Program-made: the position numbers and the translations under genes
Assembly: GCA_013298775.1 (NCBI GenBank)
Contig: JAAFIV010000001.1
Coordinates: 62,001 to 126,000, forward strand
DNA length: 64,000 nt
From: Ignavibacteria bacterium
GTDB lineage: Bacteria; Bacteroidota; Ignavibacteria; Kapaibacteriales; UBA4661
Direction of reading: 5' to 3'
Notes under the pieces: generated by a model
What the model was told of the DNA's origin: nothing
The model's input: only the letters and a program-made list of their open reading frames with translations
The model's database searches: none
In this document: positions 25,052 to 44,762 of the stretch, one piece after another
How positions within the stretch are numbered: position 1 is the stretch's first letter
Layout: every line of letters begins with the position of its first letter

Positions 25052-25606
25052 ATGACACGAGAAGTACGAGCAACAAGAACTATGAGAGATACGCCAAACA
25101 ATGAACGCTTCTTCAGACTGCTGGAACCGCTCTATGAGCGACTTGTGCGCTTTATTCGCATGACCACGACCAGTCCTGAAGAAGCGGAGGATATTCTGCA
25201 TGACACCGTTTTGCAGGGCTATCAGCATTTTCACCAGCTTCGCGATGAGAAAGCCCTCCTTAGTTGGTTATTTTCGATAGCCAGCCGCTTAGAAAAAAAA
25301 CGGCGCGTAAAGGCATTCATCTTTACGCGGCTGGACGCACTCACGCACGACCGCGAAGAGCATCATTACACACGTCCTGATGTTTCAGCAGATGTACAGC
25401 TTTTGCACGAGGCATTGCAGCATTTATCCCCCAAAATGCGCGAAGCATACACGATGTTTGAAATTACGGGGCTTTCGCTCCAAGAAATACAAACAATTCA
25501 AGGAGACTCGCTCTCTGCCGTGAAAATGCGCATTGCACGGGCAAGAGAGAAAGTAGAAGCACTCTTACGTGAGAAAATTCAGGCATTGGAATTGCAAGAA
25601 CGGTAG
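25052..25606 (+). CDS. ECF-type RNA polymerase sigma factor, cassette 1
   Basis: A sigma-70 family extracytoplasmic-function regulator of up to 184 residues. Region 2 is seen as LYERLVRFIRMTTTSPEEAEDILHD followed by FHQLRDEKALLSWLFSIASR. Region 4 is MREAYTMFEITGLSLQEIQTIQ followed by SAVKMRIARAREKVEALL. A second in-frame ATG at 25082 would give 174 residues and is equally plausible. It heads a same-strand set with the membrane partner at 25716 (gap 109 bp) and the lipoprotein at 27230. It is divergent from the large T9SS protein gene. Of the three sigma factors in this window it is the least similar to the others. Confidence 0.88.
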   Translation: MTREVRATRTMRDTPNNERFFRLLEPLYERLVRFIRMTTTSPEEAEDILHDTVLQGYQHFHQLRDEKALLSWLFSIASRLEKKRRVKAFIFTRLDALTHDREEHHYTRPDVSADVQLLHEALQHLSPKMREAYTMFEITGLSLQEIQTIQGDSLSAVKMRIARAREKVEALLREKIQALELQER

Positions 25607-25715
25607 AATTGGTCAAGGTTTTCATCAAGGGTTAGTGAAGAGTTCACCAGAGAGTATCAAAAAGAGTATCAAATAACAGCAAGCACAAACGAATATCATT
25701 TGAAATAGAACAGTC

Positions 25716-27146
25716 ATGAAAAAATCAATAGAAGAAATCCTGAATGCTGCACGGAACGAGCCTGTTTCGCCGCCATTCGTCCATATAGTAGAAACAACAA
25801 AAGAGCGTGCCGCCCTGCAAGCCGCACAACCACGAGGCTTTCGCCGCTTTCGTACTTTTTTTTCGGGTGTCGTTGTTGGCATATTGCTTGCAAGTATCGG
25901 CATGGGACTGTTCCTGCGCTTCGCTGGAGCAGGCAACTTTACTGCGCTCTTTGAGTCCCCTCGTTATGCGGGCGCAAAGCAATTTTCCCAAACTGATTCC
26001 GCAGTGAACAATGATTCCGTAGTGAACAATGATTCTGTAATGAACAATGATTCTGTACCGACATCTGCACCATTTGTGGATATGCCATTTGTCTCGGAAG
26101 CACGAGATAGTACCTCCTTGAATTCAAACTCGAAAAATGTGAATCCAAACACCATTGTTCGAGAACCAGTGCGTAAGCAGGTACGTGAGCAAGTGCGGGA
26201 ACAAGTGCGCGAGCAGATTCGCTATCGGACGCAGTATATCCGCGTTCCCGTGCAAGCATATCCCAGCACCGCGCCGCCTTCTTGGAGCGACCTTGCCTTG
26301 TTCTGGAATAAGAATTTTTCAATGAAAAGCGCATCATCGGCGGACGAACAAGAACAGGCGCATAGCACAGAAAGCCCATCAATACTTGCACGTGGAGCTT
26401 CTGGGCAATCAGGACAACCATTACCGAATGCACCACAACCAACGCCCGACAACTCGTCGTCGTCGGTGGCTTCTCCATTCGGTCAGTACCCACCAAGTTT
26501 ATCCGCACGTGCATCCGAACGGGGTGGAATACCTTCTCTGTTGAATAATCTTTCTCAAACCATTGTTTCTATACCACTTTTGGTGCGGGAGTCGCCCTCT
26601 GAGCAAAGCAAATCTGCCATGAGCGCGTTACTGCAAGAGCAATTCAACAACACAGAACTCTTCAGCATTGGTCTGCGTGGCAGCACGACGCTCTACAACG
26701 GGCAGCCTGCCTTCGATACCTTAAAGCCAAACGCACTTCCCTTACCAACAGCGATCCTTTCGGCACACTACTTCACCTCGCCCACAACAGCCTTTGGCGT
26801 AGAAGTTGGCTACGACACGTACTTTCTTCGCCTCACCGAGACCCAAACAAGCACCATGACAGAGTTTAGAAATATTTACCCGAATCTCTTCTGGCTCGCT
26901 GCTTATGTGCAGCAGCGCGTAGAGCTTATGCCACAAATGCTCCTCCTGACGCAAGCAGGTTTGGGAGCATCGCAGTATGGTCCAATAGGGCGTGGCTTGC
27001 TTGGCTTCCTCTACGCCCCCGATACCCGCACGGAGCTGCTTCTGGGGCTGGAAGGGAGTTCTCTCCTGTTCCGCGATGCTGGTGGGGCGGGCGTGGGTTT
27101 CAGCTCGAAAATTGGCATTACTTATGGTGTTTCAGTAAAGTTTTGA
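25716..27146 (+). CDS. Single-TM sigma-partner protein with barrel-like C-terminal domain, cassette 1
   Basis: A 476-residue protein following an ECF sigma gene. A ~45-residue cytoplasmic N-terminus (MKKSIEEILNAARNEP, then basic RGFRRFR) is followed by one transmembrane segment (~50-68). A long low-complexity linker comes next, with tandem repeats NNDSV (x3) and VREQ (x3-4). The C-terminal ~170 residues are amphipathic beta strands (LPTAILSAHYF, AFGVEVGYDTYFLRL, LLGFLYAPDTRTELLLGLEG) ending ITYGVSVKF. That tail matches the product at 42516 closely (APDTRTELLLGLE versus SPDAKTEFTLGLE; GITYGVSVKF versus GFSYGVSLRF). By position it is probably an anti-sigma factor, but no zinc-finger motif is seen. 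The combination of an inner-membrane anchor and an outer-membrane-like barrel is unusual. Confidence 0.75.
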   Translation: MKKSIEEILNAARNEPVSPPFVHIVETTKERAALQAAQPRGFRRFRTFFSGVVVGILLASIGMGLFLRFAGAGNFTALFESPRYAGAKQFSQTDSAVNNDSVVNNDSVMNNDSVPTSAPFVDMPFVSEARDSTSLNSNSKNVNPNTIVREPVRKQVREQVREQVREQIRYRTQYIRVPVQAYPSTAPPSWSDLALFWNKNFSMKSASSADEQEQAHSTESPSILARGASGQSGQPLPNAPQPTPDNSSSSVASPFGQYPPSLSARASERGGIPSLLNNLSQTIVSIPLLVRESPSEQSKSAMSALLQEQFNNTELFSIGLRGSTTLYNGQPAFDTLKPNALPLPTAILSAHYFTSPTTAFGVEVGYDTYFLRLTETQTSTMTEFRNIYPNLFWLAAYVQQRVELMPQMLLLTQAGLGASQYGPIGRGLLGFLYAPDTRTELLLGLEGSSLLFRDAGGAGVGFSSKIGITYGVSVKF

Positions 27147-27229
27147 GTATGTTTGTAGGATTTTTCAACGATACATCCAAGAAACGCGCTTTTATCATCT
27201 CCATTCTCACCATTCTTTCGGGTATCTCT

Positions 27230-28387
27230 ATGTACAAGGTTTTCTCTTCAATCGCAATGTTTCGCCTCTTCTGTTGCGTGGCTTGTTCTCTGAGTATGTT
27301 GAGTCTTGCTGCCTGCGACCCCAAAGATTACGCGGGTCCAGCAACAAAAGATACCACCGTGAAAGCTCGTGAAGCCAGAGGCATCAGCAGAGTAGGTACA
27401 GTAGATACGCTCGGTGGGCGTGTCATTTACCAAACAATTGCTGTTGGAAACAGACTTTTTTCTTCTAGTGCGGAAGGTCTTTTTTGGTCAAATGATTGGG
27501 GAAAAACATGGATGAAAATTACAGGAAATGGTTTTCCTGATATTATTAACCCCAGCGATAGTCGCTTTAATGGGACAACGTTTGTTTACGAACAACAAGG
27601 TATGATGCTCCTTGGACGCAAAAACGGCGGGGTATGGCTCTCTCTTGATAGCGGACGCGCGTGGAAGCAGATAATATCCGACAATTATCTCCCTATCAGT
27701 GGGGGGATATACGACCAATCATCAATCTTTCTCAATAAAGATACCCTACTTGTTCCTATGCTCTCTCGTAATCAGGGAACCTCGTATATTTTACTTTCGA
27801 CAAACAAAGGTGAAACATGGTCGGAAGTTCAACAAAGTGTTGGTGTTGTTACTTTTTCTTCTTTCTGGGCTGTAAACGATAAGGTTTTTGCTTTTGGCAG
27901 AAGAGGTGAAGTTTTTTCTTCTGACCGTAACACAGGTTTAACACAATGGACGCGGCGTGAAAATATACCTGACGTTACCGCAACATACTCGTTCTTACCT
28001 TTGGGTGAAAATACTCTTCTTATGAATAGCCCAGTAACTGGTTTATTTAAGACAACCGATGCTTGTCAATCATGGCAAAGCGCAAATAATGGATTGGCAA
28101 GAGGATACACGAATATTGCAATAAATGATAAATATATTTTTGTAACACTGGAGAAACAAATCTCAGCAACAGGATATTCTTTTGACGGTGTGTATTGGCA
28201 AAGTAAAACTGGTCCAGCGAAATGGGAGAGACTGAATATAGATGCTATTATTCCACCTGGTAAGACGATAAATACAAGTGATAACGGTCTTTATGTTTTC
28301 TGCCTCCACGCAACAAACGACCGCCTCATCATTGGCACAAACGGTGATGGCGTGAAAACATACAAGTTCAAGAATCCTTTTCCGTAA
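27230..28387 (+). CDS. Lipoprotein with BNR/Asp-box-like beta-propeller repeats, cassette 1
   Basis: With the ATG at 27230 the protein has 385 residues and a lipoprotein signal ending LSLAAC. The frame is open back to 27143, with an ATG at 27149 close to the previous stop, so the start is uncertain. The mature part has repeated Asp-box-like turns (SNDWGKTWMKI, SLDSGRAWKQI, STNKGETWSEV, TTDACQSWQSA), each followed by a strand. This is typical of sialidase-like or photosystem-stability-factor-like beta-propellers. No catalytic motif was seen, so it is more likely a binding protein. It is the third gene of the sigma cassette and probably sits on the cell surface. Confidence 0.78.
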   Translation: MYKVFSSIAMFRLFCCVACSLSMLSLAACDPKDYAGPATKDTTVKAREARGISRVGTVDTLGGRVIYQTIAVGNRLFSSSAEGLFWSNDWGKTWMKITGNGFPDIINPSDSRFNGTTFVYEQQGMMLLGRKNGGVWLSLDSGRAWKQIISDNYLPISGGIYDQSSIFLNKDTLLVPMLSRNQGTSYILLSTNKGETWSEVQQSVGVVTFSSFWAVNDKVFAFGRRGEVFSSDRNTGLTQWTRRENIPDVTATYSFLPLGENTLLMNSPVTGLFKTTDACQSWQSANNGLARGYTNIAINDKYIFVTLEKQISATGYSFDGVYWQSKTGPAKWERLNIDAIIPPGKTINTSDNGLYVFCLHATNDRLIIGTNGDGVKTYKFKNPFP

Positions 28388-28478
28388 GATTTTGCTTGAG
28401 TGCCGCAGTAGTACCGCGCCATTCCTACACATCTCCTCAAAGTCAGTAGCACACACCCAAGCACCACATAACAAAAGC

Positions 28479-29216
28479 TCAGAATTCCTGAAAAACTTCA
28501 CGAACCTCGAAAAAACCTTGCTTCCCGCGTAACCAGCGTGCTGCACGCAGCGCACCAAGCGCGAAACCGCTTCTGTTGCGGGCGCGGTGCGTGAGTTCCA
28601 GCGTGTCTGCAAGAGAGTCGAGATACACCGTGTGTGTGCCGGGTATTTCCCCAACCCGCGTAGAACTGAGATGCAGTGCGGTCTCTGCAATACGTCCGTG
28701 CGATGTTTCCGTCAATAGCTCTGGTTTTTTGGGTGTATGTTGCATCAATATCTCACCGAGAGCAAGCCCTGTGCCGCTTGGTGAATCAAGTTTGCGGCGA
28801 TGGTGAAGTTCATGGAGCGCAACATCATACTCGTCGTATCGTGCCACAAGCCGTGCTGCTTCCTCCACAATACGCATAAACATGAGTACGCCAACCGAGA
28901 AATTCGCCCCCCACACTGCACCAATTCCTGCCGTAGCGACAAGTTCACGAAGCGAGGTAATATCAGATGTCCAGCCTGTCGTGCCAATCACAATATTTTT
29001 CCCACGCCGAGCGCATTCAGCAACATTCGTTTGCACAGCGTGAGGCTTAGAAAAATCAATCGCCACATCAAAATTCCACGCGCTTTCGGGTGCGGAAGTG
29101 AGTGGTGTAGCGGAAGTGAAAATTTGCTCCACACGGCATCCATACTGGGGCGCGAGACGTTCTAATTCTTTTCCCATTGAGCCATAGCCAATGAGCGCGA
29201 TTGGGCAATCGTTCAT
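28479..29216 (-). CDS. dapB: 4-hydroxy-tetrahydrodipicolinate reductase
   Basis: It reduces the dapA product with NAD(P)H in the lysine / meso-diaminopimelate pathway. It has 245 residues from the ATG at 29216 (MNDCPIALIGYGSMGKE); 17 upstream in-frame codons are not conserved-looking. The nucleotide-binding GYGSMG is at 10-15. The DFSKPHAV and GTTGW motifs follow, and the catalytic HELHHRRKLDSPSGT (His-His ~138-139, Lys ~142) is intact. It fits with the DAP-type murE at 51474: this cell makes mDAP peptidoglycan. The next gene upstream on this strand is deoC, separated by about 110 bp. Confidence 0.95.
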   Translation of the reverse strand: MNDCPIALIGYGSMGKELERLAPQYGCRVEQIFTSATPLTSAPESAWNFDVAIDFSKPHAVQTNVAECARRGKNIVIGTTGWTSDITSLRELVATAGIGAVWGANFSVGVLMFMRIVEEAARLVARYDEYDVALHELHHRRKLDSPSGTGLALGEILMQHTPKKPELLTETSHGRIAETALHLSSTRVGEIPGTHTVYLDSLADTLELTHRARNRSGFALGALRAARWLRGKQGFFEVREVFQEF

Positions 29217-29329
29217 AAAAAAGGATGAGATATGAGGATGGAGGGATGAAGTTTCTGGGAGACGCAATCTTGCGTACAGATATCGGTTAAAGTTTCTGTC
29301 CTCAGCCCTCGGACTTCGTTCTTTCTTGG

Positions 29330-30034
29330 TTAATATCCTTGTGAGGGCGCACCAATACTTGTTTTTCCGCCGAGCGCATCTACAATTGCCACGCCTGCGC
29401 TTGCACCAATGCGAGATGCTCCAGCAGCAATAAGTTCTTGTGTAAACGCTAAGTCACGAATGCCACCAGAGGCTTTAATACTGACGTTCGCGCCAACGTG
29501 TGTTTTCATGAGGCGAATGTCTTCCAGTGTCGCGCCTTTTGTGGAGAAGCCAGTGGAAGTCTTGATGAAATCTGCTCCCGTGCGAGTAACAATTTCACAT
29601 GCTTTGATTTTATGCGCCTCACCAAGCAATGCCGTCTCAATAATCACCTTCACAATCGCACCCGCTTTGTGTCCGGCTTCTGTAACAGCGCGAATGTCGC
29701 TTTCCACCAACGCATCATTGCCCTCCACCAACGCGCCGATATTCAGCACCATATCAATTTCCGTCGCGCCATGCGCCAGTGCATTTTCTGCTTCAAATAC
29801 TTTGGTGGCGGTAGTATTTGCGCCCAAAGGAAAGCCAATCACCGTGCAGACCTTCACCGCAGAGCCGCGTAAAAGCTCGCTTGCATGCGAAACATGGCTT
29901 GGGTTCACACATACCGACGCAAAACCGTATTCGCGGGCTTCGCGGCAGAGCGTTTCGATGCCAGCACTGGTGGCTTCGGGTTTCAGCAAGGTATGGTCTA
30001 TCATTGCGGCGAGACGTTGTTGTTCGACAGTCAT
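29330..30034 (-). CDS. deoC: Deoxyribose-phosphate aldolase
   Basis: A class I aldolase of 234 residues that splits 2-deoxyribose-5-phosphate into acetaldehyde and glyceraldehyde-3-phosphate in deoxynucleoside catabolism. Motifs: [11 protein letters not shown] at the N-terminus, the [10 protein letters not shown] strand with the proton-relay Asp (D94), the Schiff-base lysine in [10 protein letters not shown] (K158), and the second lysine in [11 protein letters not shown] (K187). It lies upstream of dapB on the same strand; the two have no shared pathway, so co-transcription would be incidental. Confidence 0.95.
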
Positions 30035-30403
30035 AGGAAAAAATAAAAAAAGGGAGAAAGTGACAAACTTGAATTAAAAGGCTTGAATTGAAAGACTTGA
30101 ATTCAAGAGTGTTTTTGTGATTTGTTGTCTAGGAAAATCTACGAAGATTCGGTAAATTCGACAACTCTTGTTTTTGAAAGCATGACTTTATCTGGTTTGC
30201 CAGCAAAAGTATTTTGAATGTGTTCATTATTGATGCCGATCCACGGGAGCAACGCTCTTGCTTGCCCCGCGTTCAATTCACAGTCTATCTACCCCGCGTT
30301 GTATCTTGGGTTCGTAACCTTTCGAGTGGTCATTCGCAAAGAGCGTGTGGTCGCAACACAGTGTTTACCAACACCATACGATAAACGCCCAATCCTTCTG
30401 TTC
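30035..30403. promoter_or_regulatory. Divergent upstream region of deoC and the response regulator gene
   Basis: This 369-bp region separates two divergent genes. It holds short direct repeats of CTTGAATT (about 30070-30110, three copies) close to the deoC start. The frame of the response regulator stays open back to 30218, but that portion has no domain. No clear promoter can be fixed. Confidence 0.35.
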
Positions 30404-31072
30404 ATGTTTCAAGGCGATACTATCAATGTCTTTGTAACCGACGACCACGAAGCGGTGCGCTTTGCGTTGGAATCGTGGATAAAAACAAAAGCAGGTACCG
30501 AACCGCCCTTTATCAATCTTGTCGGTACGTCGTCCACTGGTGAAGATACCCTGCGCTCGCTCAAAACTATTCATGCCGACGTACTGCTGATTGACGTGCA
30601 ACTCGCCGATACAAGCGGCTTGGAGGTAATTAAATCGCTCCGACAAAAAGGCATTGGCAATGATAAACTCAGCATCCTTTCTATGACGGGCAATGAAAAT
30701 GTTTCCGTACATGATATTCTTGCAAGCGGCGCGAATGGCTATTTGTCCAAAGCAGAATCTGGCGATACGTTTATTGCAGCAATACGCTGGATAGCCCAGC
30801 ATCCATCGGAGTTGTGGCTGAGTTCGAGCGTCGCACAGCAGCTTGTGGTCATTGACCACGCCTTGAATAGTGCAGGAATTACGCCCGTTGAGCGGAATGT
30901 GCTGCGTCTTATTCGCTTGCCGAACAAGGAAATTGCGGAACTGCTCAACATTAGCGAAGGTACAGTGAAAAACTACATTTCGAGTATTTACCAGAAACTC
31001 GGCGTAGGTTCTCGCTTAGAAGCAACAAAATTTGCTGCGAAAATTGGTCTTATTCCCGCAACACAACGCTAA
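30404..31072 (+). CDS. NarL/LuxR-type response regulator (orphan)
   Basis: A 222-residue two-component regulator. The receiver domain shows the acidic pair in VTDDHEAV (D13, D14), the phosphoacceptor in LLIDVQLADTSG (D64), the switch Thr in ILSMTGN, and the conserved Lys in GYLSKAESGD (K116). The DNA-binding domain is LuxR-type: TPVERNVLRLIRLPNKEIAELLNISEGTVKNYISSIYQKLGV. The ATG at 30404 (MFQGDTINVF) is chosen because it places the receiver at the N-terminus. No histidine kinase is adjacent. It is followed at short distances by a small membrane protein (55 bp) and a DCC-family protein (22 bp further), suggesting one operon. Confidence 0.92.
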   Translation: MFQGDTINVFVTDDHEAVRFALESWIKTKAGTEPPFINLVGTSSTGEDTLRSLKTIHADVLLIDVQLADTSGLEVIKSLRQKGIGNDKLSILSMTGNENVSVHDILASGANGYLSKAESGDTFIAAIRWIAQHPSELWLSSSVAQQLVVIDHALNSAGITPVERNVLRLIRLPNKEIAELLNISEGTVKNYISSIYQKLGVGSRLEATKFAAKIGLIPATQR

Positions 31073-31127
31073 TCTTTCCGTTTGTAGTCTATCTCAAAGC
31101 ACTCACCACTCTCCGTTTTTTTCTTTT

Positions 31128-31448
31128 ATGTTCTCTCCCAAAACCGCAAAACGCCTTGCCCTTGCGCACCTCATTCTGAGTATCATGCTGTTGTATTTTT
31201 TGGTTGCCTTGCAGCTTCCCGGACGCACCGAACCCAACGCTGTATCTGTTGTCGCGGGTGCAATATGGGGAAGTCTGAATGTGCCGCTCTATCTGCTCCG
31301 CGAGGCATTTACGCACCTGACGGGTCAGCCACTTGCATTTTTTTCAGTTTTGGCATTGCAAGTGCTGTTCTCGTATGGCATCTATGTTTTACTCCTGTGG
31401 ATTATTGACCGTACAAGCCCCAAAGCCGCTTCGGAAGCGCAATCATAG
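31128..31448 (+). CDS. Small membrane protein in the response regulator operon
   Basis: A 106-residue protein from the ATG at 31128 (MFSPKTAKRLALAH). About three hydrophobic segments are seen: LILSIMLLYFLVALQL, VVAGAIWGSLNVPLYLL and FFSVLALQVLFSYGIYVLLLWII. Upstream in-frame codons to 31032 overlap the previous gene's end and are not convincing. Family not recognised. The position between the regulator and the DCC protein suggests co-expression. Confidence 0.65.
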   Translation: MFSPKTAKRLALAHLILSIMLLYFLVALQLPGRTEPNAVSVVAGAIWGSLNVPLYLLREAFTHLTGQPLAFFSVLALQVLFSYGIYVLLLWIIDRTSPKAASEAQS

Positions 31449-31470
31449 GGTGTGAAGGAAAAAATAAAAT

Positions 31471-31923
31471 ATGAAGCCGCTCCATGCCTCATCGTTCCCA
31501 CTCGACCATTTCCCCAAGAACATTGTTTTTTTCGATGGTGTGTGCCATTTCTGCAATGGCGCAGTACATCTTCTTCTTCGTTTGGATTCCCGTAAACGCC
31601 TGTACTACGCGCCATTGCAAGGAGCGAGCTTTCAAGAGCTTTGTAAGAATATTGCCCCAATTTCTTTACCAGATTCTTCCTCGCCAGACACCATCGTTTT
31701 CCTCACGGAGGATGGACGCATGTTCACCAAATCCGATGCCGCCCTGCGCATTGGTGCGTGTTTGGGCGGTGCATACCCGCTTGTGCTGGTATTCTTGCTT
31801 GTACCGCGTTTTCTCCGCAATGCGCTCTACGACTACGTTGCACGGAATCGCTATCATTGGTTTGGAAAAGACGACCACTGCCGCATCCCGCATCCTGACG
31901 AGGCTGCACGGTTTTTCCCCTGA
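31471..31923 (+). CDS. DCC-family (DUF393) thiol-disulfide oxidoreductase-like protein
   Basis: A 150-residue protein with the family start NIVFFDGVCHFCNGAVHLLL (residues ~17-36), which holds the CxxC redox pair of a thioredoxin-like fold. The SDAALRIGACLGG stretch and the C-terminal DYVARNRYHWFGKDDHCRIP signature also match DUF393 (DCC1-like) proteins. The cellular role of the family is not well defined; a thiol redox role is inferred. It ends 27 bp before a terminator shared with the convergent gene at 32018. Confidence 0.88.
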   Translation: MKPLHASSFPLDHFPKNIVFFDGVCHFCNGAVHLLLRLDSRKRLYYAPLQGASFQELCKNIAPISLPDSSSPDTIVFLTEDGRMFTKSDAALRIGACLGGAYPLVLVFLLVPRFLRNALYDYVARNRYHWFGKDDHCRIPHPDEAARFFP

Positions 31924-32017: not shown

Positions 32018-32773
32018 TTATTGCCGCTCCGAGCCGAAACCGATACCAAGTTGGAAAAATACACCGCGACCAGAAAACCAATTTATATTTGCATCTGGTA
32101 AGAGAACACCTTCACTTGTCCATGCACCAAGCACAGACAAGGTATAGCCAGCTTTTGCAACAATGTAGAGGTCGCCGTATTCCAAGGGGAAACGATAATC
32201 TGCACCGACAGCAATGCCAAATCCGCCAGCGTCGCGCTCCATAGAAAAACTGTTTGAGGCATTTGATTGCAGCAGGGCAGTAAAAGATGTTTGTCGTGTA
32301 ATGGTAACTCTATCTGTAATTGCAACAGAGGAAAGAAGTGGATACAAGCGGAAACGCGGGCTGTTAATGAGAGCATACCCGACACTAAAATCGTACTCAA
32401 ACCCTCTACGGATAGCAGTAATACCAGAACCAGATATCGCGCTAAATCGTATTAATCCTGGAACTGCAAGGATATTAAAACTACCTGAAACTATCCAACG
32501 ATTATGACTCCATGCTATATGAAACGGCGAGATATTGATGGATAGTCCTGTCGTAGGAAGGTCGCTGTTTGGTTGAATTCCAAGCCTCGCATTAAAGTCT
32601 GCATCAAAGCCCGTTGGTCTGGAAGTATTAAGTATTTGCCACATCCAAAATGGACGCTCCGTCGTTTTCGGAACAGTAAGCGTACTATCCTCTATTGCCC
32701 ACAAAGGCGCATATACACTCACTGTGAGGGCAACGCACAGCGCAAGCACTCGTACAAAAACATACAATTTCAT
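32018..32773 (-). CDS. Outer-membrane beta-barrel-like protein, cassette 2
   Basis: A 251-residue exported protein: signal peptide MKLYVFVRVLALCVALTVSV to LWA. The mature part has alternating amphipathic strands (GLSINISPFHIAW, RWIVSGSFNILAVPG, YDFSVGYALINSPRFRLYPLL, GFGIAVGADYRFPLEYGDLYIVAKAGYTLSVLGAW). It ends VFFQLGIGFGSERQ, consistent with an 8-10-strand barrel or OmpW/OmpX-like fold. It lies on the same strand downstream of the second ECF sigma / partner pair, separated by 248 bp containing a hairpin repeat (32884-33013). It may or may not be in the same transcript. Family not recognised. Confidence 0.7.
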   Translation of the reverse strand: MKLYVFVRVLALCVALTVSVYAPLWAIEDSTLTVPKTTERPFWMWQILNTSRPTGFDADFNARLGIQPNSDLPTTGLSINISPFHIAWSHNRWIVSGSFNILAVPGLIRFSAISGSGITAIRRGFEYDFSVGYALINSPRFRLYPLLSSVAITDRVTITRQTSFTALLQSNASNSFSMERDAGGFGIAVGADYRFPLEYGDLYIVAKAGYTLSVLGAWTSEGVLLPDANINWFSGRGVFFQLGIGFGSERQ

Positions 32774-34489: not shown

Positions 34490-35056
34490 TCAAAACTGAT
34501 TGAGGTCGTTGATAAAGGGCGATAACACATTTTTCAAGCGTTCCTTTGCCCGCCAAATGCGCTTGGTGACAGTGGTTTCTGGCACATTCGTCAGCGTAGC
34601 AATTTCCTCGTACGATAAACCTTGATAATGCCGCAGCACAAATGCCTCACGGACATCGAACTCCAAATACTCCAGCGCAATCTCCACAAGCCGCATGAGT
34701 TCTTGCTGCTCGTAGTTTTTGGTCAGCGAAGGTGCATTTTCTAGGATGAGCGTTTCTTCATTCATTACCACCATTGGCTTTCGCCTACGACGCTGGTCAA
34801 TACAGGCGTTGCGGGCAATTGTGGTGAGCATTGCGGGAACGTTGTCAATCACAAGCGTTTGTGCGGATTTGTAAAAGCGGACGAAGGTTTCTTGAAAGGC
34901 ATCATTACCATCGGCTTTGCCCAAAACCGCCACGCAATACGCATTCACGCGCCCGTGATAGCGGTCGTAGAGTTCGGAAAAAGCGTAGTTGGCATCAGAT
35001 TTTTGGGAGCAAATACGCGCAAGTAGTTGTTCGTCAGAAAAGCCGGAATAGTTCAT
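34490..35056 (-). CDS. ECF-type RNA polymerase sigma factor, cassette 2
   Basis: A 188-residue sigma factor from the ATG at 35056 (MNYSGFSDEQLLARICSQ); the frame is open 74 codons further upstream but without domain content. Region 2: AFSELYDRYHGRVNAYCVAV followed by DAFQETFVRFYKSAQ. Region 4: VREAFVLRHYQGLSYEEIAT followed by TTVTKRIWRAKERLKNVL. It resembles the cassette 3 sigma factor in both regions (AFSELYRRLGQRMYAYCVRV; REAVILREYDGFSYQEIAEL), so the two are probably paralogs. It is followed by the anti-sigma-like gene and is divergent from the operon at 35326. Confidence 0.9.
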   Translation of the reverse strand: MNYSGFSDEQLLARICSQKSDANYAFSELYDRYHGRVNAYCVAVLGKADGNDAFQETFVRFYKSAQTLVIDNVPAMLTTIARNACIDQRRRRKPMVVMNEETLILENAPSLTKNYEQQELMRLVEIALEYLEFDVREAFVLRHYQGLSYEEIATLTNVPETTVTKRIWRAKERLKNVLSPFINDLNQF

Positions 35057-35325
35057 GGCATCTGGTTTTTTGGGCTGTTCGTGTGCGATTGTTGTCGTGT
35101 TGTTATCGTGTTGTTGTGAGTGCTGTTCTTGTACAATGACGCAGCAAAAATACATTCCTTCCCAGTAAAAATGCGTTTTTGTGGAAAAATTTGGTTCGGC
35201 GAGCAAACATGACAGCAATGGCAAATTTTCTTTGCTATCTTCATCGGTAATGTTATTTTTGCTTACTCTATAAAACAAAGTTCTCTATAAAAAACATTTT
35301 TAAAGAATCCTAACCGAAATGCACG

Positions 35326-37243: not shown

Positions 37244-37245
37244 GA

Positions 37246-38123: not shown

Positions 38124-38150
38124 TTCTTTCACAACATCCTATCACACAAT

Positions 38151-38304
38151 GTCATTACGTTAAGCCCTCACCCCGCTCTGCGAGCGATCCTCTCCCAAAG
38201 GGCGAGGGTGAAGAATTACCTCTGCATCTTACCCCTCTACCTCTGGGAGAGGGGTTGGGGTGAGGGAAAAACGCTTAACTCAATGACATTACCTATCACA
38301 CAAT
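38151..38304. mobile_element. CCCTCACCC-type element, copy 2, with long flanking direct repeats
   Basis: The hairpin core is 38165-38266. Around it, AATGTCATTACGTTAAG (38148-38164) pairs with CTTAACTCAATGACATT (38274-38290). Outside lies an exact 13-bp direct repeat CCTATCACACAAT (38138-38150 and 38292-38304), which looks like an insertion duplication. The downstream copy ends four bases before the start codon of the TonB receptor gene. Confidence 0.75.
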
Positions 38305-38307
38305 ACC

Positions 38308-40689
38308 ATGAACACCCTCAACAAAACCTCACCCTCGCAGAGAACTATACTCGCAATGCTTCTAACGCTGATGTTATCTCATCTCCCACTTCTTGCGCAA
38401 ACGCAAATCATTCGCGGAGCAGTACAAAATGCGAACACGAAACAAGCCGTAACGGGCGCACGAATACTGGTCGCGGAGCTTGGCAAAGGCGCGAATTCTC
38501 AGGCAGACGGCGCGTTTCGTTTGCCCGCGCTTCCTGCGGGACGCTACACGCTGCGCATCACCGCGCTTGGCTACGAGGCAGTATCTATGCCTGTTGTTCT
38601 CACTTCTGGCAAGGAACTCATTCTCACGATTTCGCTTGCGGAAAAAATTATTTCCACCGGAGAACTGACTGTCATGGGCAGGAAAGACAGCTTTACAGCC
38701 ATCAACGAGGCTTCCTTGGTGTCCTCGAATGCTTTTTCGGTGGATAATGCGTACCGTTTTGCGGGAGCGCGAAGCGATGTAGCCCGCATGGCATCTGCAT
38801 TTGCAGGCGTTGTTGGCGCGAATGACCAGCGCAACGACATCATCATTCGCGGTGGCTCACCAACAGAACTACTTTGGCGGCTCGACGGCTTGGACATTCC
38901 GAACCCCAATCACTTCGCAACGCAAGGCGCGACGGGCGGTCCGGTGAACGCGCTCAATATCAATCTGCTCGACAACAGCGATTTCCTCACGGGCGCGTTT
39001 TCTGCCGAATATGGCGACCGTCTTTCTGGCGTGTTCGATTTGCGCACGCGGCGCGGCAACGACGAAAAATTTGAATTCACTGGGCAATTTGCCTTCAACG
39101 GCATTGAGGCAATGGTAGAAGGTCCCGTGCCGCTTCAAGCCTTGTTTTCACCCTCGACCAATGCGACCATTAAAAGCTCATTTATGGCAAGTTATCGGAA
39201 ATCATTTTTGGATGTATTTATTGGAGCGGGCGGAAACGTGGGCGTTTCGGGCATTCCGCGCTATGAAGACCTTTCGCTGAAATTCGACCTCAGCATCGGA
39301 GAGCGGCATAAAATCTGGCTTACAGGCTTGGGTGGCGTAAGTTCTATCACGATTGACCCCGCTCGCGGCGATGAAGTGTTCACAGGCGACCAGCGCGTTG
39401 CCAACAGCAATCAACTGGGAACGCTCGGTGTGCATTGGCAACATTTACCCACCGACCGAAGTGTGGGAACGCTGACGCTGGGCGTGGTTGCGAATAGATT
39501 TGGCAATCAAATTGACTCTATTACCGCAACAAGCGATTTCAAGCCAAACGGCTTCACGCCTTGGTTTTCGGGCAATTCGCTCGAAGGCTACGCTACGGCG
39601 AAATATCGCTATTCCGTTTCCCCCGACGCGCAGCATACGTTTGTATTCGGCGCAGAGGCGCGGTCTCGCTTTTTCGACCTGCGCGAAGAACGCTTTTTTC
39701 CAACGCGCACAGGGTTTCTTTACAAACTGCAAAATCAAGGAAACGCGCTCCACACCTTGAGCTTTGCGCAATGGCTCTTTCATCCGAATGATAATCTGAG
39801 TTTGAATGTGGGCATTCATTCGCAATATCTTGGCGTGAGTAATCGTGCGACAATCGAACCACGTTTCTCGCTAAACTGGAGTATTGGTGCGGGACACAGC
39901 CTTTCCTTTGGAACGGGCATCTATCGCCAATCGCAGCCGCTTTTGGTGTATTTCACCAACGATAATGCAGGTTTAGACTTCACGCAAGCCATTCACTACG
40001 TTGCGGGATATTCTTGGCAAGCAAGCACTGATGCGCTTTTTAAGGCAGAAGGCTATTTCAAAGATTATTCGCTTGTGCCAGTCGAGCGTGAGCGCAAAAG
40101 CAGTTATTCGATGCTGAATGCGGGTGCAAACTTTGGTTCGGTACGCTCTGGCGGGCTTGTAAACACGGGTGCAGGGCGTACATACGGCGCAGAAGTTTCT
40201 TTTCTCAAGCATTTCGCGGGGTCGTGGTATGCGCAAAGTGCCGTCTCGTGGGTGCGTCAGGAGTTTCGCGCCTCCGACAGCTTGTGGCGATATGGCGCGT
40301 TCGATAACGGCTTGGTTGTGAGCGTTTTGGGCGGTTACGAATGGAAAGTAACGGAGAGTTTTACGATGGAATTTTCCCTGCGCTACACTCGCGCTGGAAG
40401 CGGTGCGCGAACTCCGATAGACCTCGCATCATCACGCGCTCGCGGCGAAACCGTTTTCAATACCAATGAGGCATTTTCGCTCCGCTATCCTGATTACGAG
40501 CGGGCGGACGGGCGTATAGATTTTCGCTTAAATTTTCAAGGCTGGTCGCTTATCAATTTCTTTTCCGTTGAAAATATCTTCAACAGGCGCAATCTGCTGA
40601 ACCAAAGTTTTTCGCCCAATACTGGCGCGATTACGGACAATTACCAGCTCGGTCGGTTTTTTATTGGTGGCTTTCGGATTGAATTTTAG
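38308..40689 (+). CDS. TonB-dependent outer membrane receptor with carboxypeptidase-like N-terminal domain
   Basis: A 793-residue receptor. The signal peptide ends LLAQT. A carboxypeptidase-regulatory-like domain follows (IRGAVQNANTKQAVTGARIL, AGRYTLRITALGYEA), then the plug (VMGRKDSFTAINEASLVSSN, DIIIRGGSPTELLWRLDGLD, FLTGAFSAEYGDRLSGVFDL) and a barrel ending GRFFIGGFRIEF. It lacks the SusC-specific signature and is shorter, so it belongs to the general TonB receptor group rather than SusC. The ligand (siderophore, vitamin, metal complex) cannot be told; no uptake partner gene is adjacent. The DNA just before the start codon is the target repeat of a mobile hairpin element. Confidence 0.92.
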   Translation: MNTLNKTSPSQRTILAMLLTLMLSHLPLLAQTQIIRGAVQNANTKQAVTGARILVAELGKGANSQADGAFRLPALPAGRYTLRITALGYEAVSMPVVLTSGKELILTISLAEKIISTGELTVMGRKDSFTAINEASLVSSNAFSVDNAYRFAGARSDVARMASAFAGVVGANDQRNDIIIRGGSPTELLWRLDGLDIPNPNHFATQGATGGPVNALNINLLDNSDFLTGAFSAEYGDRLSGVFDLRTRRGNDEKFEFTGQFAFNGIEAMVEGPVPLQALFSPSTNATIKSSFMASYRKSFLDVFIGAGGNVGVSGIPRYEDLSLKFDLSIGERHKIWLTGLGGVSSITIDPARGDEVFTGDQRVANSNQLGTLGVHWQHLPTDRSVGTLTLGVVANRFGNQIDSITATSDFKPNGFTPWFSGNSLEGYATAKYRYSVSPDAQHTFVFGAEARSRFFDLREERFFPTRTGFLYKLQNQGNALHTLSFAQWLFHPNDNLSLNVGIHSQYLGVSNRATIEPRFSLNWSIGAGHSLSFGTGIYRQSQPLLVYFTNDNAGLDFTQAIHYVAGYSWQASTDALFKAEGYFKDYSLVPVERERKSSYSMLNAGANFGSVRSGGLVNTGAGRTYGAEVSFLKHFAGSWYAQSAVSWVRQEFRASDSLWRYGAFDNGLVVSVLGGYEWKVTESFTMEFSLRYTRAGSGARTPIDLASSRARGETVFNTNEAFSLRYPDYERADGRIDFRLNFQGWSLINFFSVENIFNRRNLLNQSFSPNTGAITDNYQLGRFFIGGFRIEF

Positions 40690-40695
40690 TCCTTT

Positions 40696-40836
40696 GTACG
40701 CGCCAAAATTCTTGTCTTAGTTGCACAGACATTCTTGTTTGTGGGTATTGGTAGGAGATTCAGGTGGTAAACACAGACAGGAATGTCTGTGCCACTGAAG
40801 CCTGATTGCATCTATCATTCAGAGATTTTGACGTGT
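40696..40836. repeat. TA-target hairpin element R3, copy C
   Basis: Left end GTACGCGCCAAAATTC and right end GATTTTGACGTGTAC pair imperfectly. The core has TTGCACAGACATTCTTG and CACAGACAGGAATGTCTGTG. It starts seven bases after the TonB receptor stop. Confidence 0.7.
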
Positions 40837-40890
40837 ACTGAGGTTTTAATCGTACAAACCGCATACATACTCACTTTTTTCTTTACAACC

Positions 40891-41544
40891 ATGCTTCACA
40901 ATGCAAATATCTTTCTTCACGTCTCGTGCGGGACAATCGCACTGTTACTGGGTTTCGTGGCAATTTTTTCTCGCAAAGGCGGGCGCACTCACATCAAAAG
41001 CGGACAGATTTTCCTCGCATTGCTCGTCGTTGTGATAACGACGGCACTTGTGGGCGTGTTTATTTTTGGGCGGAACACGTTTCTGCTCGTGATTACCTTA
41101 CTTGCAGCGTATCAAGGTTTTTCGGGATATAGAATTCTTCAAACGCGAGTAAATACGCTGCATTGGGCGGATATTGGTGCGGGTATTCTCACGCTCACAT
41201 CGGCGGCATATTTTCTGTACTTTTTGCGTCAAATCGGCATGATATGGTCTCCAGCGGTGATTTACTCTACGCTTGGCTGGCTTTTTGGCGTTGTTGTGTA
41301 CGATGTTGCGCGATATAGCATTCCCGCAGAACTCTACAAGCACCGTAAAATCTGGCTTCTGGAGCATATTGTAAAAATGATGTCCGCCTTTGGTGCAATA
41401 GCATCTGCCTTTGCAGGCACGGTTTTACCGAACTTTCAACCGTATAGCCAGCTTTTACCTTCGCTTGTAGTAACGCTCGGAATGATGTACTTTCTTGTTG
41501 TGTGGTTGAGGAAAACCTCTCCTCTTGATACAGCATCTCGTTGA
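40891..41544 (+). CDS. Polytopic membrane protein, DUF2306-like
   Basis: A 217-residue protein from the ATG at 40891 (MLHNANIFLHVSCGTIALLLG). About six to seven transmembrane segments are seen. The HVSCGTIALLLGFVAIFSRKGGRTHIKSG stretch near the N-terminus matches the pattern of small membrane proteins annotated DUF2306 or similar (helix, small loop, then H-x3-G before helix 2). Function unknown. Upstream frame to 40783 runs through the R3 repeat and is rejected. It is followed by an inverted repeat (41551-41649) and a terminator. Confidence 0.7.
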   Translation: MLHNANIFLHVSCGTIALLLGFVAIFSRKGGRTHIKSGQIFLALLVVVITTALVGVFIFGRNTFLLVITLLAAYQGFSGYRILQTRVNTLHWADIGAGILTLTSAAYFLYFLRQIGMIWSPAVIYSTLGWLFGVVVYDVARYSIPAELYKHRKIWLLEHIVKMMSAFGAIASAFAGTVLPNFQPYSQLLPSLVVTLGMMYFLVVWLRKTSPLDTASR

Positions 41545-41550
41545 TTCTCA

Positions 41551-41690
41551 ATGATTTCGGTTGGAAAATTTTCGTCACTCCGGCGTAGGTTGGCATCCAT
41601 TGGAAGCGCGTAGGTGCTTTCTATTCCCGAAATTTCCAACTGAAATCATGTAGAACTATCTTGTAGAACTATCTCGTAGAACTTCTCTCG
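41551..41690. repeat. Inverted repeat followed by a short tandem repeat
   Basis: ATGATTTCGGTTGGAAA (41551-41567) pairs with TTTCCAACTGAAATCAT (41633-41649), 16 of 17. Directly after it come three tandem units of the type GTAGAACTATCTC (41650-41690). No gene. Confidence 0.6.
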
Positions 41691-41701
41691 TTTCTGAATA
41701 C

Positions 41702-41750
41702 AATACCCGCCAAGCCTCACTGTTAGTGGTCTGGGCGGGTATTTTCTTTT
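41702..41750 (+). terminator. Intrinsic terminator
   Basis: AATACCCGCC (41702-41711) pairs with GGCGGGTATT (41734-41743), followed by a T-rich tract. It separates the DUF2306-like gene from the third sigma cassette. Confidence 0.8.
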
Positions 41751-41885
41751 CTGCAATATCCTTTGCTAGTGTTTCAAGAAAAAAAACTTTCAAAAAATCT
41801 GCAACGTTCTTGCGCATCGTGTGTCATTGCTTTATTGTTACAGATGCCTTTGCTTTTCTCCTTACATCTGATTCACACATAATCC

Positions 41886-42455
41886 ATGAAACAGCGCATC
41901 ACTGCTTATACCGATGAAGAACTCTTCGCGTGTTTGTCCGAGACAAACGAGGCAGAAGCGGCGTTCTCTGAACTATATCGACGATTAGGGCAGCGTATGT
42001 ACGCGTATTGTGTGCGGGTTCTCGGTGATATGCGCCTTGCAGAGGATGTGTTTCAAGAGGCAATGCTTAAATTTTACCGAGCAGGACAAGAAGGTACGAA
42101 AGTAAAAAATGTGGCTGGATACCTCATGCAGAGCGTCCGCAACCTGTGTTTGAATGCAAAACGCGACCGCAAAATAACGTTCTCTTTTGAAGACTTCGAC
42201 CTCCACACGCCAAGCGGCGCGGCGCGATACGAAGCGGAAGAATTGGCACAACTGGTAGTTTCTGCGCTGGAACTATTGGACGATGAATACCGCGAAGCCG
42301 TGATTCTACGCGAATATGACGGCTTTTCGTATCAAGAAATTGCGGAACTCACAGGCTGTACGGAGGTAAACGCCAGAACACGCGTTTTTCGCGGTAAGCA
42401 GCATCTTCGTACCATCCTGCAACCATATTTCAATGATATAGTAAAACACCGATAA
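41886..42455 (+). CDS. ECF-type RNA polymerase sigma factor, cassette 3
   Basis: A 189-residue sigma factor. Region 2: AFSELYRRLGQRMYAYCVRV then LAEDVFQEAMLKFYRAGQ. Region 4: YREAVILREYDGFSYQEIAE then VNARTRVFRGKQHLRTIL. It is close to the cassette 2 sigma factor in both regions. The membrane partner gene starts 60 bp downstream, and a TIG-domain lipoprotein follows that. Autoregulation is likely by analogy with other ECF loci, but no promoter match was established. Confidence 0.92.
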   Translation: MKQRITAYTDEELFACLSETNEAEAAFSELYRRLGQRMYAYCVRVLGDMRLAEDVFQEAMLKFYRAGQEGTKVKNVAGYLMQSVRNLCLNAKRDRKITFSFEDFDLHTPSGAARYEAEELAQLVVSALELLDDEYREAVILREYDGFSYQEIAELTGCTEVNARTRVFRGKQHLRTILQPYFNDIVKHR

Positions 42456-42515
42456 ATACTAGCACAGACAATACTTGAGAGAATATTGATTATCGTTTGT
42501 ATAAGGATTCACGCC

Positions 42516-43787
42516 ATGAACTATTCTGAACATTATTCCGAAAAAATTCACGATTACCTTGATGGTACGCTCGGCGACGTGGAAGAAGCGAGTTTGCTCG
42601 GCGCAATTGCCACTAGCGCGGAATTACGCGATGAACTTCGCCATGCGATTGCCCTCAAAGCCGCATTCAAAGCTGATGTACAGGCATTAACGCCGCCGCC
42701 GCATCTGACAAATAGCATTTTTGCTAATCTTGGTTTTATCTCGTCTGGCGTGCCACACCACGCCTTGCCGAATGAAACAGTACACGCACGTTCCAGCAAT
42801 ACCGCACTCGCAAGTGTACTTTCCTCCTTGCTCACTGCCGTTTTGCTTCTTTCGTGGAATCTACTTGGCACACAGGGAAGCAAGAAAAGAAGCGACACTC
42901 AAGCTACTTTTGCCCAAAACAATGCTCCAAGCACATCTCCGCTCATATATTGGCGTATTTCATCCGCTCCAAGGGCGGCATTTCGCAGCCCAACACCAGC
43001 GCATTCTCAGGTGGCTTCCATGCTTGCTGTGAGCCAATTTTCTCCGTCAGTATTTTCTCCGTCAGTATTTTCTTCGTCAGTATTTTCTTCATCAGAATCT
43101 GTCTCATCAACATTTCCTTTAGAACCAGCACCAGAACTATTCCCAGAGCATGAGTCTCCGCAAGAGCAGATTACGATTACGAATAATTCATTTCGCCTGA
43201 ATACGGCATCAGAACTTGTGCCGATGCCCATAGCGAACACGCTGCCTCTGGAAAATGGTTCTTTCAATACTCAAACATCCGAACAGGAATCATGGTTGCA
43301 GCGTGTTCAGATTCATGCGCGGCGTATTGTTTCTACTTCACTGCCAGCAACAGAATTCCCTTCCAATCCATCATCATTTTTGCGCAATACTGCTCTTGCT
43401 GCGACCTTCAAGCTCTCCGAGCGTCATTCTGTAGGCGTAGAATGTAGCGAGGAGACATTTTACCAACGTTTTCAGGAACGTTTGGGCGAAGGAGAGTCAC
43501 CAGTTACAATACAACAAAATCCGTCGCTGTTTTGGGCAGGAATCAGCTATCGGTATTTGTTGCTTGAAAACCCTACGCATGGCTTCAATCCTTTCTTGCA
43601 AGGTCTTGTTGGCGGAACGCAACTTGGCGCGACGGGGCGCGTGATGCTGGGGCTGAACTATTCGCCCGACGCAAAAACAGAATTTACGCTCGGCTTGGAA
43701 ACAAGTGCGCTTGTGTTTTTGCATCAAGGCGTGCTGTATGCCTCACCAAAACTGGGCTTCAGCTATGGTGTTTCGCTCCGATTTTAG
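42516..43787 (+). CDS. Single-TM anti-sigma-like protein with barrel-like C-terminal domain, cassette 3
   Basis: A 423-residue protein from the ATG at 42516, preceded by AAGGAT. The N-terminal ~75 residues (EKIHDYLDGTLGDVEEASLL, LRDELRHAIALKAAF, NSIFANLGF) look like the cytoplasmic part of anti-sigma factors and parallel cassette 2. One TM segment is at ~97-117. The linker holds a perfect or near-perfect 15-bp tandem repeat (SPSVF units, x4). The C-terminal ~150 residues (ALAATFKLSERHSVGVECSE, NPSLFWAGISYRYLLL, VMLGLNYSPDAKTEFTLGLE) end LGFSYGVSLRF with a terminal Phe, as in outer-membrane barrels, and match cassette 1. It probably restrains the adjacent sigma factor and senses the envelope through its C-terminal domain; this is inference. 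Confidence 0.78.
   Translation: MNYSEHYSEKIHDYLDGTLGDVEEASLLGAIATSAELRDELRHAIALKAAFKADVQALTPPPHLTNSIFANLGFISSGVPHHALPNETVHARSSNTALASVLSSLLTAVLLLSWNLLGTQGSKKRSDTQATFAQNNAPSTSPLIYWRISSAPRAAFRSPTPAHSQVASMLAVSQFSPSVFSPSVFSSSVFSSSESVSSTFPLEPAPELFPEHESPQEQITITNNSFRLNTASELVPMPIANTLPLENGSFNTQTSEQESWLQRVQIHARRIVSTSLPATEFPSNPSSFLRNTALAATFKLSERHSVGVECSEETFYQRFQERLGEGESPVTIQQNPSLFWAGISYRYLLLENPTHGFNPFLQGLVGGTQLGATGRVMLGLNYSPDAKTEFTLGLETSALVFLHQGVLYASPKLGFSYGVSLRF
43038..43096. repeat. In-frame 15-bp tandem repeat in the cassette 3 linker
   Basis: Four units of the type TTTTCTCCGTCAGTA encode SPSVF/SSSVF. Copy number changes of one unit would keep the frame and lengthen or shorten the periplasmic linker by five residues. 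Confidence 0.8.
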
Positions 43788-43823
43788 CATTTTTATTCCC
43801 ACAATTATTCACAAGGATATTCT

Positions 43824-44762
43824 ATGAAAACTCCATCATTACTAGTGCTGTGCTGTGTTTGTCTTGCTTCATTCACCGCTTGCACAAATTCAACAGATTT
43901 TAACACGCCAAGAGCGATTATTCAAAATAGACAAATAGCACCGCCCAGCATTGCTAGCGACACGTCTGGAACAATGCAATCCGATACGGCGACACCACTC
44001 AATATCCTCCGCAGACCTGTTATTACTGGTTTTTCCCCCTCTGTCATTTCAAGATTTTTACATCTTGGTACCGTTTTTATTTTTGGGAGCAATTTCTCCA
44101 ATGTTACACAAGTATTGTTGGGGGGCGTGCCTGCGAAGTCATTTACCATCACTTCTGACAAAGAATTGAAGGTCTTTGCAGACCCTGAAAATACAGTATC
44201 AGGCTCTATTACTGTCATCAATCAGTTCGGCAGCACAAGAGTACCCAACTTTTATTTTAACTCTCCACCTGCCGAAGGTGGCGGCATAATAAGAAATTTC
44301 TTCCCCAATTCGGTAACTCCTGGCTCGACGGTGTTCATTACAGGAGTATATTTGAATCTAGCAACTCTGGTTACATTTGGAGGCTTTCCTGCTACTTCTT
44401 TCACTGTTATTTCAGATACACAAATCAAAGCTATTGTCAGTCATGAAGCACGTTCAGGTGCAGTTGGGCTAACATCTGGTAATGTGTTTTCAACAGTGGA
44501 AGGATTTACTGTATTGCAAGGTCAAAGAAACATTTCTTCCTTTGAACCAAGCTCAGGGAGAATCAATACAAGAGTTAGTATTTTTGGTTTAGGATTTCAA
44601 GGAGCAAGCTCCGTGCGATTTGGCGGGGTAAATGCCGCTTCTTTTATCGTCGTCTCCGACACAAGAATTGATGCGGTTGTTGGGGCAGGAGCAACAGGTG
44701 AAATTACCATCAGCACGCCTGGAGGAGCAACTTCTTTGGCGGGGTTTACGTTTTTGCCATGA
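43824..44762 (+). CDS. Lipoprotein with three IPT/TIG domains, cassette 3
   Basis: A 312-residue lipoprotein; the signal ends ASFTAC with Cys20 as lipid site. Three immunoglobulin-like IPT/TIG domains follow: PVITGFSPSV with LGGVPAKSFTITSD, IIRNFFPNSVTPGSTVFITG with FGGFPATSFTVISD, and ISSFEPSSGRINTRVSIFG with FGGVNAASFIVVSD. The sequence pattern is the same as in the eight TIG domains of the large protein at 19799. It lies 36 bp after the anti-sigma-like gene, so co-transcription is likely. A surface binding role is inferred. An R2 element follows directly. Confidence 0.88.
   Translation: MKTPSLLVLCCVCLASFTACTNSTDFNTPRAIIQNRQIAPPSIASDTSGTMQSDTATPLNILRRPVITGFSPSVISRFLHLGTVFIFGSNFSNVTQVLLGGVPAKSFTITSDKELKVFADPENTVSGSITVINQFGSTRVPNFYFNSPPAEGGGIIRNFFPNSVTPGSTVFITGVYLNLATLVTFGGFPATSFTVISDTQIKAIVSHEARSGAVGLTSGNVFSTVEGFTVLQGQRNISSFEPSSGRINTRVSIFGLGFQGASSVRFGGVNAASFIVVSDTRIDAVVGAGATGEITISTPGGATSLAGFTFLP

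Follow-up and report, generated by a model that had tools for sequence, protein, structure and literature searches.

Gene content and organization of the locus

We analyzed a 64,000 nucleotide window (the whole stretch of DNA considered here, from contig JAAFIV010000001.1 of the Ignavibacteria bacterium assembly GCA_013298775.1) and identified three cassettes, each consisting of a gene for an extracytoplasmic function (ECF) sigma factor, a partner gene and a third gene for a lipoprotein or secreted protein. The partner proteins (P1, P2 and P3) are predicted to have a cytoplasmic N-terminus, one transmembrane helix, a disordered linker and a C-terminal barrel of the outer-membrane type. A preliminary description of this DNA had proposed the same gene order at all three sites, and the genes are indeed placed as claimed.

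The first cassette, on the forward strand, comprises sigma factor S1 (25052–25606; Sigma70_r4_2 9.3e-12, Sigma70_r2 5.6e-7), P1 (25716–27146) and T1 (27143–28387), a BNR-type propeller lipoprotein with a lipobox recognized by rule and its lipidated Cys codon at 27314. T1 matches Sortilin-Vps10 at 3.9e-8 with 32.9 bits, against a cut-off of 33. The second cassette is on the reverse strand, and comprises S2 (34490–35278; Sigma70_r4_2 1.6e-13, Sigma70_r2 1.1e-9), P2 (33022–34302) and T2 (32018–32773). S2 had been given a start at 35278; the true start is probably the ATG at 35056. T2 is a secreted protein with a signal-peptide-like start, and possibly an outer-membrane protein. A gene that resembles T2 by eye comes after a P2-like partner in genome G007. 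The third cassette, again on the forward strand, encodes S3 (41886–42455; Sigma70_r4_2 1.2e-16, Sigma70_r2 2.8e-12), P3 (42516–43787) and T3 (43824–44762), a TIG-type lipoprotein with its Cys codon at 43881. T3 matches NF058597 over cut-off (3.5e-11) and no Pfam family. For P3, the ATG at 42516 agrees with relatives better than the TTG at 42486. The earlier proposal that the third genes encode lipoproteins or outer-membrane proteins was thus borne out for T1 and T3 as lipoproteins; T2 was not recognized as a lipoprotein, and its match to PF13505 (E 0.086) is below cut-off.

In S1, S2 and S3, Sigma70_r2 and Sigma70_r4_2 both scored over cut-off, and by these domain matches all three are ordinary ECF sigma factors. 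The named ECF subfamilies in NCBIfam matched only below cut-off among the best 25 matches for each protein. Between cassettes 2 and 3 (38308–40689) is a gene for a 793 amino acid protein whose sequence looks like that of a TonB-dependent receptor.

Predicted structure of the partner proteins

P1, P2 and P3 have no match over cut-off to any Pfam or NCBIfam family. Alignment A2, which comprises P3 and 18 relatives but neither P1 nor P2, provided separate hidden Markov models (HMMs) for the N-domain and the barrel. The barrel HMM matches P1 at 1.4e-26 and P2 at 4.3e-12, and the N-domain HMM matches P2 at 1e-13 and leaves P1 unmatched. Thus, the C-termini of P1–P3 are related, as are the N-termini of P2 and P3 only; both relationships that the preliminary description had drawn (the C-termini of cassettes 1 and 3, the N-termini of cassettes 2 and 3) are recovered with models that do not contain the protein found. 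A PDB sequence search with A2 returned a single match (E 0.86), which is not credible.

AlphaFold2 was run on P1 and P3, and the barrel of P2 is assigned from the profile match. In the P3 model (16 input sequences), helices at residues 3–71 form a four-helix, anti-sigma-like domain, followed by a transmembrane helix (96–118), a disordered region (120–257) and ten strand segments (264–422) mostly with pLDDT above 90. We read the latter as a barrel of eight membrane strands plus an outer hairpin (317–321/330–334). P1, modeled from an input alignment made up mostly of P3-type relatives, has a short N-terminus, a transmembrane helix (42–69), a low-confidence middle with a few short helices that corresponds to the linker, and ten strand segments (316–475), which may likewise be read as eight membrane strands plus a hairpin (371–378/381–387). 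In both models the last ~160 residues thus form a barrel of the outer-membrane type, as the preliminary description had expected.

In structural alignments, outer-membrane barrels are top-ranked for both proteins (Foldseek was also run on P3). The P3 barrel aligns with porin III (Z 16.5), NspA (Z 15.3, rmsd 2.8, 134 residues aligned) and OprF (Z 14.8, rmsd 2.8, 121 aligned), and the P1 barrel with OprF (Z 16.9, rmsd 2.4, 117 aligned). Avidins rank lower (Z about 11). Of 142 barrel proteins, 116 end in F, L, W or Y (this and the other partner counts below are among the matches listed); an end of this kind is expected for outer-membrane insertion.

Matches of the N-terminal domains to NCBIfam antisigma families are weak and below cut-off (P3 1.5e-6, P2 0.03). 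For zf-HC2, P3 also falls below cut-off (E 0.061), and P1 and P2 are without a match. We infer that the partner N-terminus is an anti-sigma domain. The predicted fold and the sigma linkage described below support the earlier reading that an anti-sigma-like N-terminus and an outer-membrane-like barrel are joined in one polypeptide.

Distribution of the family and linkage to sigma factor genes

A search with P3 found matches in all 61 genomes searched, which represent 27 genera of the host's order. Named relatives are from Candidatus Kapaibacterium, 'Ignavibacteria bacterium' and a few Chlorobiota or Bacteroidota bacterium entries; NCBI taxonomy places Kapaibacterium in the Bacteroidota, class Eximiradiia. 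Some kind of barrel partner is encoded in 61 of 61 genomes, and 57 encode both domains in one protein. From the matches listed, we retrieved 132 merged regions that lie outside the window, together with 8 further regions. After identical proteins were dropped there were 145 partners, including those of the window: 130 with N-domain and barrel, 13 with a barrel only and two with an N-domain only, both of which are cut by a locus end.

A same-strand ECF sigma gene is present upstream, by rule, of 124 of the 130 two-domain partners, at a median distance of 18 bp and at most 286. In five of the six exceptions, a start called too early makes the partner overlap a sigma gene, so that on inspection the linkage is 129 of 130. 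The partner family is thus conserved beside ECF sigma genes in related genomes, as the preliminary description had anticipated. Six of the 13 barrel-only proteins, all of the P1 type, have an upstream sigma gene; of the seven without such a gene, five are truncated at the edge of the locus.

Paralogues are common, with up to 14 two-domain partners in a single genome (G024). In the host genome there are 22 Sigma70_r2 matches, five of them with a barrel-bearing partner (the S1–S3 cassettes, C23 and C44). The barrel HMM matches the C23 partner (L217) at 3.7e-21 and the C44 partner (L218) at only 2.8e-4. In the 17 further host sigma regions the barrel HMM finds nothing at E up to 0.1; in one of them, L259, the N-domain matches without a barrel. 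Among the ECF-linked proteins of the host are also two with other C-termini. One (L258:2294–4231, host C10) follows an ECF sigma gene, is 645 amino acids long and carries a TonB C-terminal domain (5.5e-17) and a type IX secretion system (T9SS) sorting tail (4.1e-6); it is possibly an anti-sigma/TonB fusion. The other (L257:1234–2346, host C67) ends in a TonB C-terminal domain (7e-19), and a lipoprotein-like gene with an ending that looks similar by eye is directly upstream of its sigma gene.

Across the phylum, the HMM search gave matches in 95 of 395 genomes, 33 of them in the host's order. Outside this order most matches listed span the N-domain only, and we fetched 20 such regions from 12 genomes. 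Eight of the 11 proteins from genomes of the same class (G212, G252 and G179) are long, with ends that look barrel-like by eye; the barrel HMM finds two of them only (L229, 1.3e-15; L235, 3.5e-4). The remaining out-of-order proteins are short, cut by a contig end (L233) or have other C-termini.

Apparent exchange of N-terminal and barrel modules

The short N-terminus of P1 is found on the same barrel in L088, L217, L219, L220 and L224. These six P1-type partners are from five genomes of one genus, including the host, and all six have a sigma gene upstream. By sequence, the two N-terminal types on this barrel family look unrelated. Conversely, N-domains of the P2/P3 type are found on proteins that lack this barrel, including L236, L240, L241 and L244, the C-termini of which we take to resemble a trypsin-type protease or a glycogen-binding domain. 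Given two N-termini on one barrel and one N-domain on other C-termini, the N-terminal and barrel modules appear to have been shuffled. In L036 (3989–4984), the anti-sigma-like N-domain is fused to a YCF48-type propeller (PSII_BNR 1.4e-15) in place of the barrel.

Length of the linker

The linker between membrane helix and barrel has a median length of 138 residues among 130 proteins, with 90% within 105–171, a coefficient of variation of 0.16 and a shortest linker of 49. A hydrophobic segment of mean hydropathy at least 1.4 is present in 129 of the 130. Residues S, A, T, P and N are abundant in the linkers, and Cys makes up 3 of 17,779 linker residues. Sequence conservation is low despite the narrow length range. 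The spread of length is smaller within genomes than in shuffles (permutation P 0.011). When pairs are binned by identity, five bins have within-genome as well as between-genome pairs; in all five the former are closer in length, and two of the five contain very few within-genome pairs. These observations are modest evidence that linker length is under a constraint set by the cell.

The third gene and a lipoprotein tag

A lipoprotein-like gene comes next after 111 of 143 barrel partners and is absent by rule from the other 32, although some of these misses read as lipoproteins and a few of the 111 (e.g., L175) are doubtful. The gap between partner and third gene is 60 bp or less in 102 of the 111. 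Over their whole length the third-gene proteins have a mean column identity of only 7% (106 aligned). Many have no Pfam domain; at E up to 0.01, and among the best 25 of 35 families, we identified Ig-like/ASH (10 of 106), DUF4397 (5), META (4), TIG (4) and serpin (3) domains. Serpin lipoproteins are third genes of type-1 partners at L217:3704–4975 (7.6e-101 when searched singly) and, by eye, at L219:1127–2392 and L224:2991–4250.

In most third-gene lipoproteins the segment after the lipidated Cys is approximately CxSPxDxDTPR. The residues favored after the Cys in 106 distinct tails are T/K-S-P-T/L-D-L/I/V-D-T-P-R. Individual positions of this tag vary widely: of the 106 tails, 57 have P at +4, 50 have D at +6, 41 have D at +8 and 44 have R at +11. 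T3 has a tag-like segment (CTNSTDFNTPR); by eye, T1 and the serpins, which are third genes of type-1 partners, have none. Of the 101 third genes that follow N-domain partners, 80 reached a tag score of at least 3, versus 4 of 43 other lipoprotein-like genes from the same loci, in scoring that left out each genome in turn and was uncorrected for orthology. Three of these four other genes (L110:4249, L138:4602 and L139:178) start 657–690 bp downstream of a partner and, given this position, are probably further members of the same cassettes. This suggests that the cassettes of L110, L138 and L139 contain tandem tagged lipoproteins.

Promoter-like elements and probable outputs

Upstream of S1 we identified the element TGTGACTTTT-N12-WTMTCCTAC, of which two copies, inverted relative to each other, occupy the intergenic region that separates S1 from a divergently oriented neighbor. 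One copy (24940–24970, forward strand) faces the cassette 1 operon and the other (24876–24906, reverse strand) faces the divergent gene (19799–24808, reverse strand), which encodes a 1669 amino acid secreted surface protein whose DUF5122 propeller repeats (2.6e-33), TIG domains (2.7e-62) and T9SS sorting tail (Por_Secre_tail, 1.2e-8) each score over cut-off. Shuffling the window 100 times produced no match to the element, even when 2 mismatches were allowed. With a spacer of 11–13, only two exact copies occur in the host genome (5.19 Mb in 95 contigs, the extent of all genome-wide matches given here), both in this one intergenic gap. Two of eight genomes of the genus, the host and G002, contain the element. 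G002 is the only other genome in which the P1 search aligned over the full length, and its two copies are likewise inverted, flanked by the sigma-1 gene and an open reading frame (ORF) that runs divergently. The product of this ORF is 30–41% identical to the middle repeats of the 1669-residue protein, and propeller domains are present. TGTGACTTTT is found before, overlapping or inside an over-called sigma ORF start in all six type-1 cassettes. With elements facing both genes and such a pair also in G002, the probable outputs of S1 are its own operon and the divergent surface protein.

Upstream of S3, TGCAAC-N15-GTGTCATT (41800–41828, forward strand) has one exact match in the genome, that before S3, and the backward control has none. 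This element also precedes an S3-like gene in G007. For S2, the evidence for the candidate element AAGGAAT-N13-GTCATT (35135–35160, reverse strand) is weak; it has three exact genome copies, before S2, before the sigma gene of the C44 paralogue and inside an ORF. Across the family, YAAC-N15-GTKW was found upstream of 19 of 128 sigma genes; shuffled sequences gave 3.6 and the opposite strand gave 2.

Comparison with known systems

Anti-sigma factors that span the envelope and bear a barrel are already known: the available excerpts describe one in P. vulgatus, named Reo (PMC9308784, PMC13114119), and a family in B. thetaiotaomicron, named Dma (PMC13088901), and in these excerpts the Bacteroides and Phocaeicola systems are supported by genetics (PMC13088901, PMC9308784, PMC13114119). 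Dma1, Dma2 and Dma3 of Bacteroides thetaiotaomicron, with Das1 and Das2, have the same sequence of sigma-binding N-domain, transmembrane helix, long disordered tether and barrel, and an adjacent ECF sigma gene. Unlike these, the cassettes described here are from another Bacteroidota class (Eximiradiia), the third gene is often tagged and a second N-terminal type shares the barrel family. The Dma2 paper, in the part available, calls the Dma family exclusive to Bacteroidota (PMC13088901), which still holds for Kapaibacteria under the present NCBI taxonomy. A PF13568 search covering 80 genomes, with 11 regions picked mostly for long open frames, yielded no Dma-like protein.

In the EcfO-Reo system of Phocaeicola vulgatus and Bacteroides fragilis, the anti-sigma factor spans five compartments and the regulon includes three NigD surface lipoproteins, according to excerpts of two reports (PMC13114119, PMC9308784). 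The locus numbers given there suggest that the P. vulgatus NigD M0N98_03762 is adjacent to sigma gene 03761 and anti-sigma gene 03760 (PMC13114119, PMC9308784), so a lipoprotein neighbor of a sigma/anti-sigma pair seems to have a precedent. Two more NigD genes of the EcfO regulon have distant locus numbers in the same excerpts, whereas both exact copies of the S1 element are in one gap.

FecI-FecR shares the relay of an outer-membrane event to an ECF sigma factor, and needs a separate TonB-dependent transducer. This transducer is described in the available part of PMC2729926. In contrast to FecR, none of P1, P2 and P3 matched the FecR domain at E up to 1, a range in which HMMER filters drop most matches above ~0.1.

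In our literature searches we found no published account of anti-sigma factors in Kapaibacteria, of the lipoprotein tag or such local promoter-like elements, or of two N-terminal types on one barrel family or a 105–171-residue linker constraint. The architecture is already known from gut Bacteroides; its spread through Kapaibacteria, the tag, the two N-termini, the linker range and the local S1 element appear, as far as we found in print, to be new.

Proposed function and alternative explanations

It is likely that each cassette is a Dma/Reo-type envelope-spanning sigma/anti-sigma system. The partner N-terminus would hold the ECF sigma factor at the inner membrane, the transmembrane helix and a disordered tether of about 105–170 residues are predicted to cross the periplasm, and the C-terminal barrel, read as eight-stranded, is predicted to sit in the outer membrane. 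The sigma factor would be freed by a change at the barrel, which may come from a ligand, from losing the lipoprotein encoded alongside, from assembly that fails or from damage to the outer membrane. Once free, S1 and S3 would most likely act at the very local promoter-like element of their own operon, so that sigma factor, receptor and third gene would be made together, and S1 would act also on the gene of the divergent secreted surface protein. Because the elements are so local, the paralogues look like insulated envelope sensors governing neighboring surface proteins.

Several observations weigh against this interpretation. The likeness to Dma is one of architecture as described in print. 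The P1 N-terminus has no anti-sigma homology in Pfam or NCBIfam, and is of low confidence in an AlphaFold2 model for which the input was mostly P3-type relatives. L132 is the sole partner with N-domain and barrel that lacks an upstream sigma gene, and the barrel-only proteins L106 and L207 lack one and are uncut. The sigma-2 element is unspecific, as its backward control pattern gives one match. Genome-wide counts of promoter-like elements are of exact copies and thus understate degenerate sites. The generic ECF-like element occurs in only a minority of upstream regions, and YAAC/GTKW at N17 was found in 29 of 128 (4.8 in shuffles) but in 30 on the opposite strand; this spacing gives no direction because TAAC-N17-GTTA is its own reverse complement.

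The barrel could instead be soluble and periplasmic, or calycin-like, in which case the partner would be an anti-sigma factor that spans one membrane only and has a large sensor in the periplasm. The avidin matches of the P3 barrel fit this, yet the best structural matches of P1 and P3 are outer-membrane barrels, the terminal residue is mostly of the type noted above and long linkers precede the barrel, so we consider a soluble barrel very unlikely. Cleavage after synthesis, which would separate a small anti-sigma factor from the outer-membrane protein and leave no continuous span at rest, is improbable but deserves more weight. Disordered linkers are prone to proteolysis, and release of ECF sigma factors by proteolysis is common in known systems. 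The low variation of linker length and its likeness within genomes suggest a constrained span, although this evidence is modest. A constrained length would also suit a protein that is mainly a mechanical tether between inner and outer membranes, with the sigma linkage serving autoregulation of its amount. This explanation is highly improbable, as several paralogues per genome, varied third-gene domains and an S1 element facing a neighboring surface gene fit signaling better.

For the tag, a role in surface export or sorting, unrelated to the barrel, is plausible, if short of an even chance. The Bacteroidetes lipoprotein export signal sits just after the Cys, and the tag, which is Asp-rich, likewise comes immediately after the lipidated Cys. 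Such a signal has been reported (PMC5080379, available in part). However, other lipoprotein-like genes in the same loci mostly lack the tag, and three of the four that score are downstream of a partner. Tentatively, and with considerable doubt, the tagged lipoprotein may be the receptor's own ligand-reader: the segment of ~11 residues after the Cys would dock in or under the barrel, and the exchangeable distal domain would meet the outside. In RcsF-OmpA, the N-terminus of a lipoprotein works with an eight-stranded barrel, and a similar pairing is the hypothetical model that we suggest for the tag.

Implications for Kapaibacteria

If the tag does couple lipoprotein and barrel, Kapaibacteria would carry, several times per genome, a single standard module of barrel, tether and sigma factor to which different lipoprotein heads could be fitted. 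The sigma promoters would be as private as the S1 element, some of them driving a neighboring giant surface protein. The signals proposed for Dma/Reo-type receptors, in the excerpts available, are outer-membrane stress or an unknown glycan (PMC13114119, PMC9308784, PMC13088901). Kapaibacteria supply more than 100 natural cassettes, many beside a candidate partner (the tagged lipoprotein), and the promoter-like elements defined by sequence are usable as reporters. Together, these make the signal, the role of the barrel and the length of the tether directly testable.

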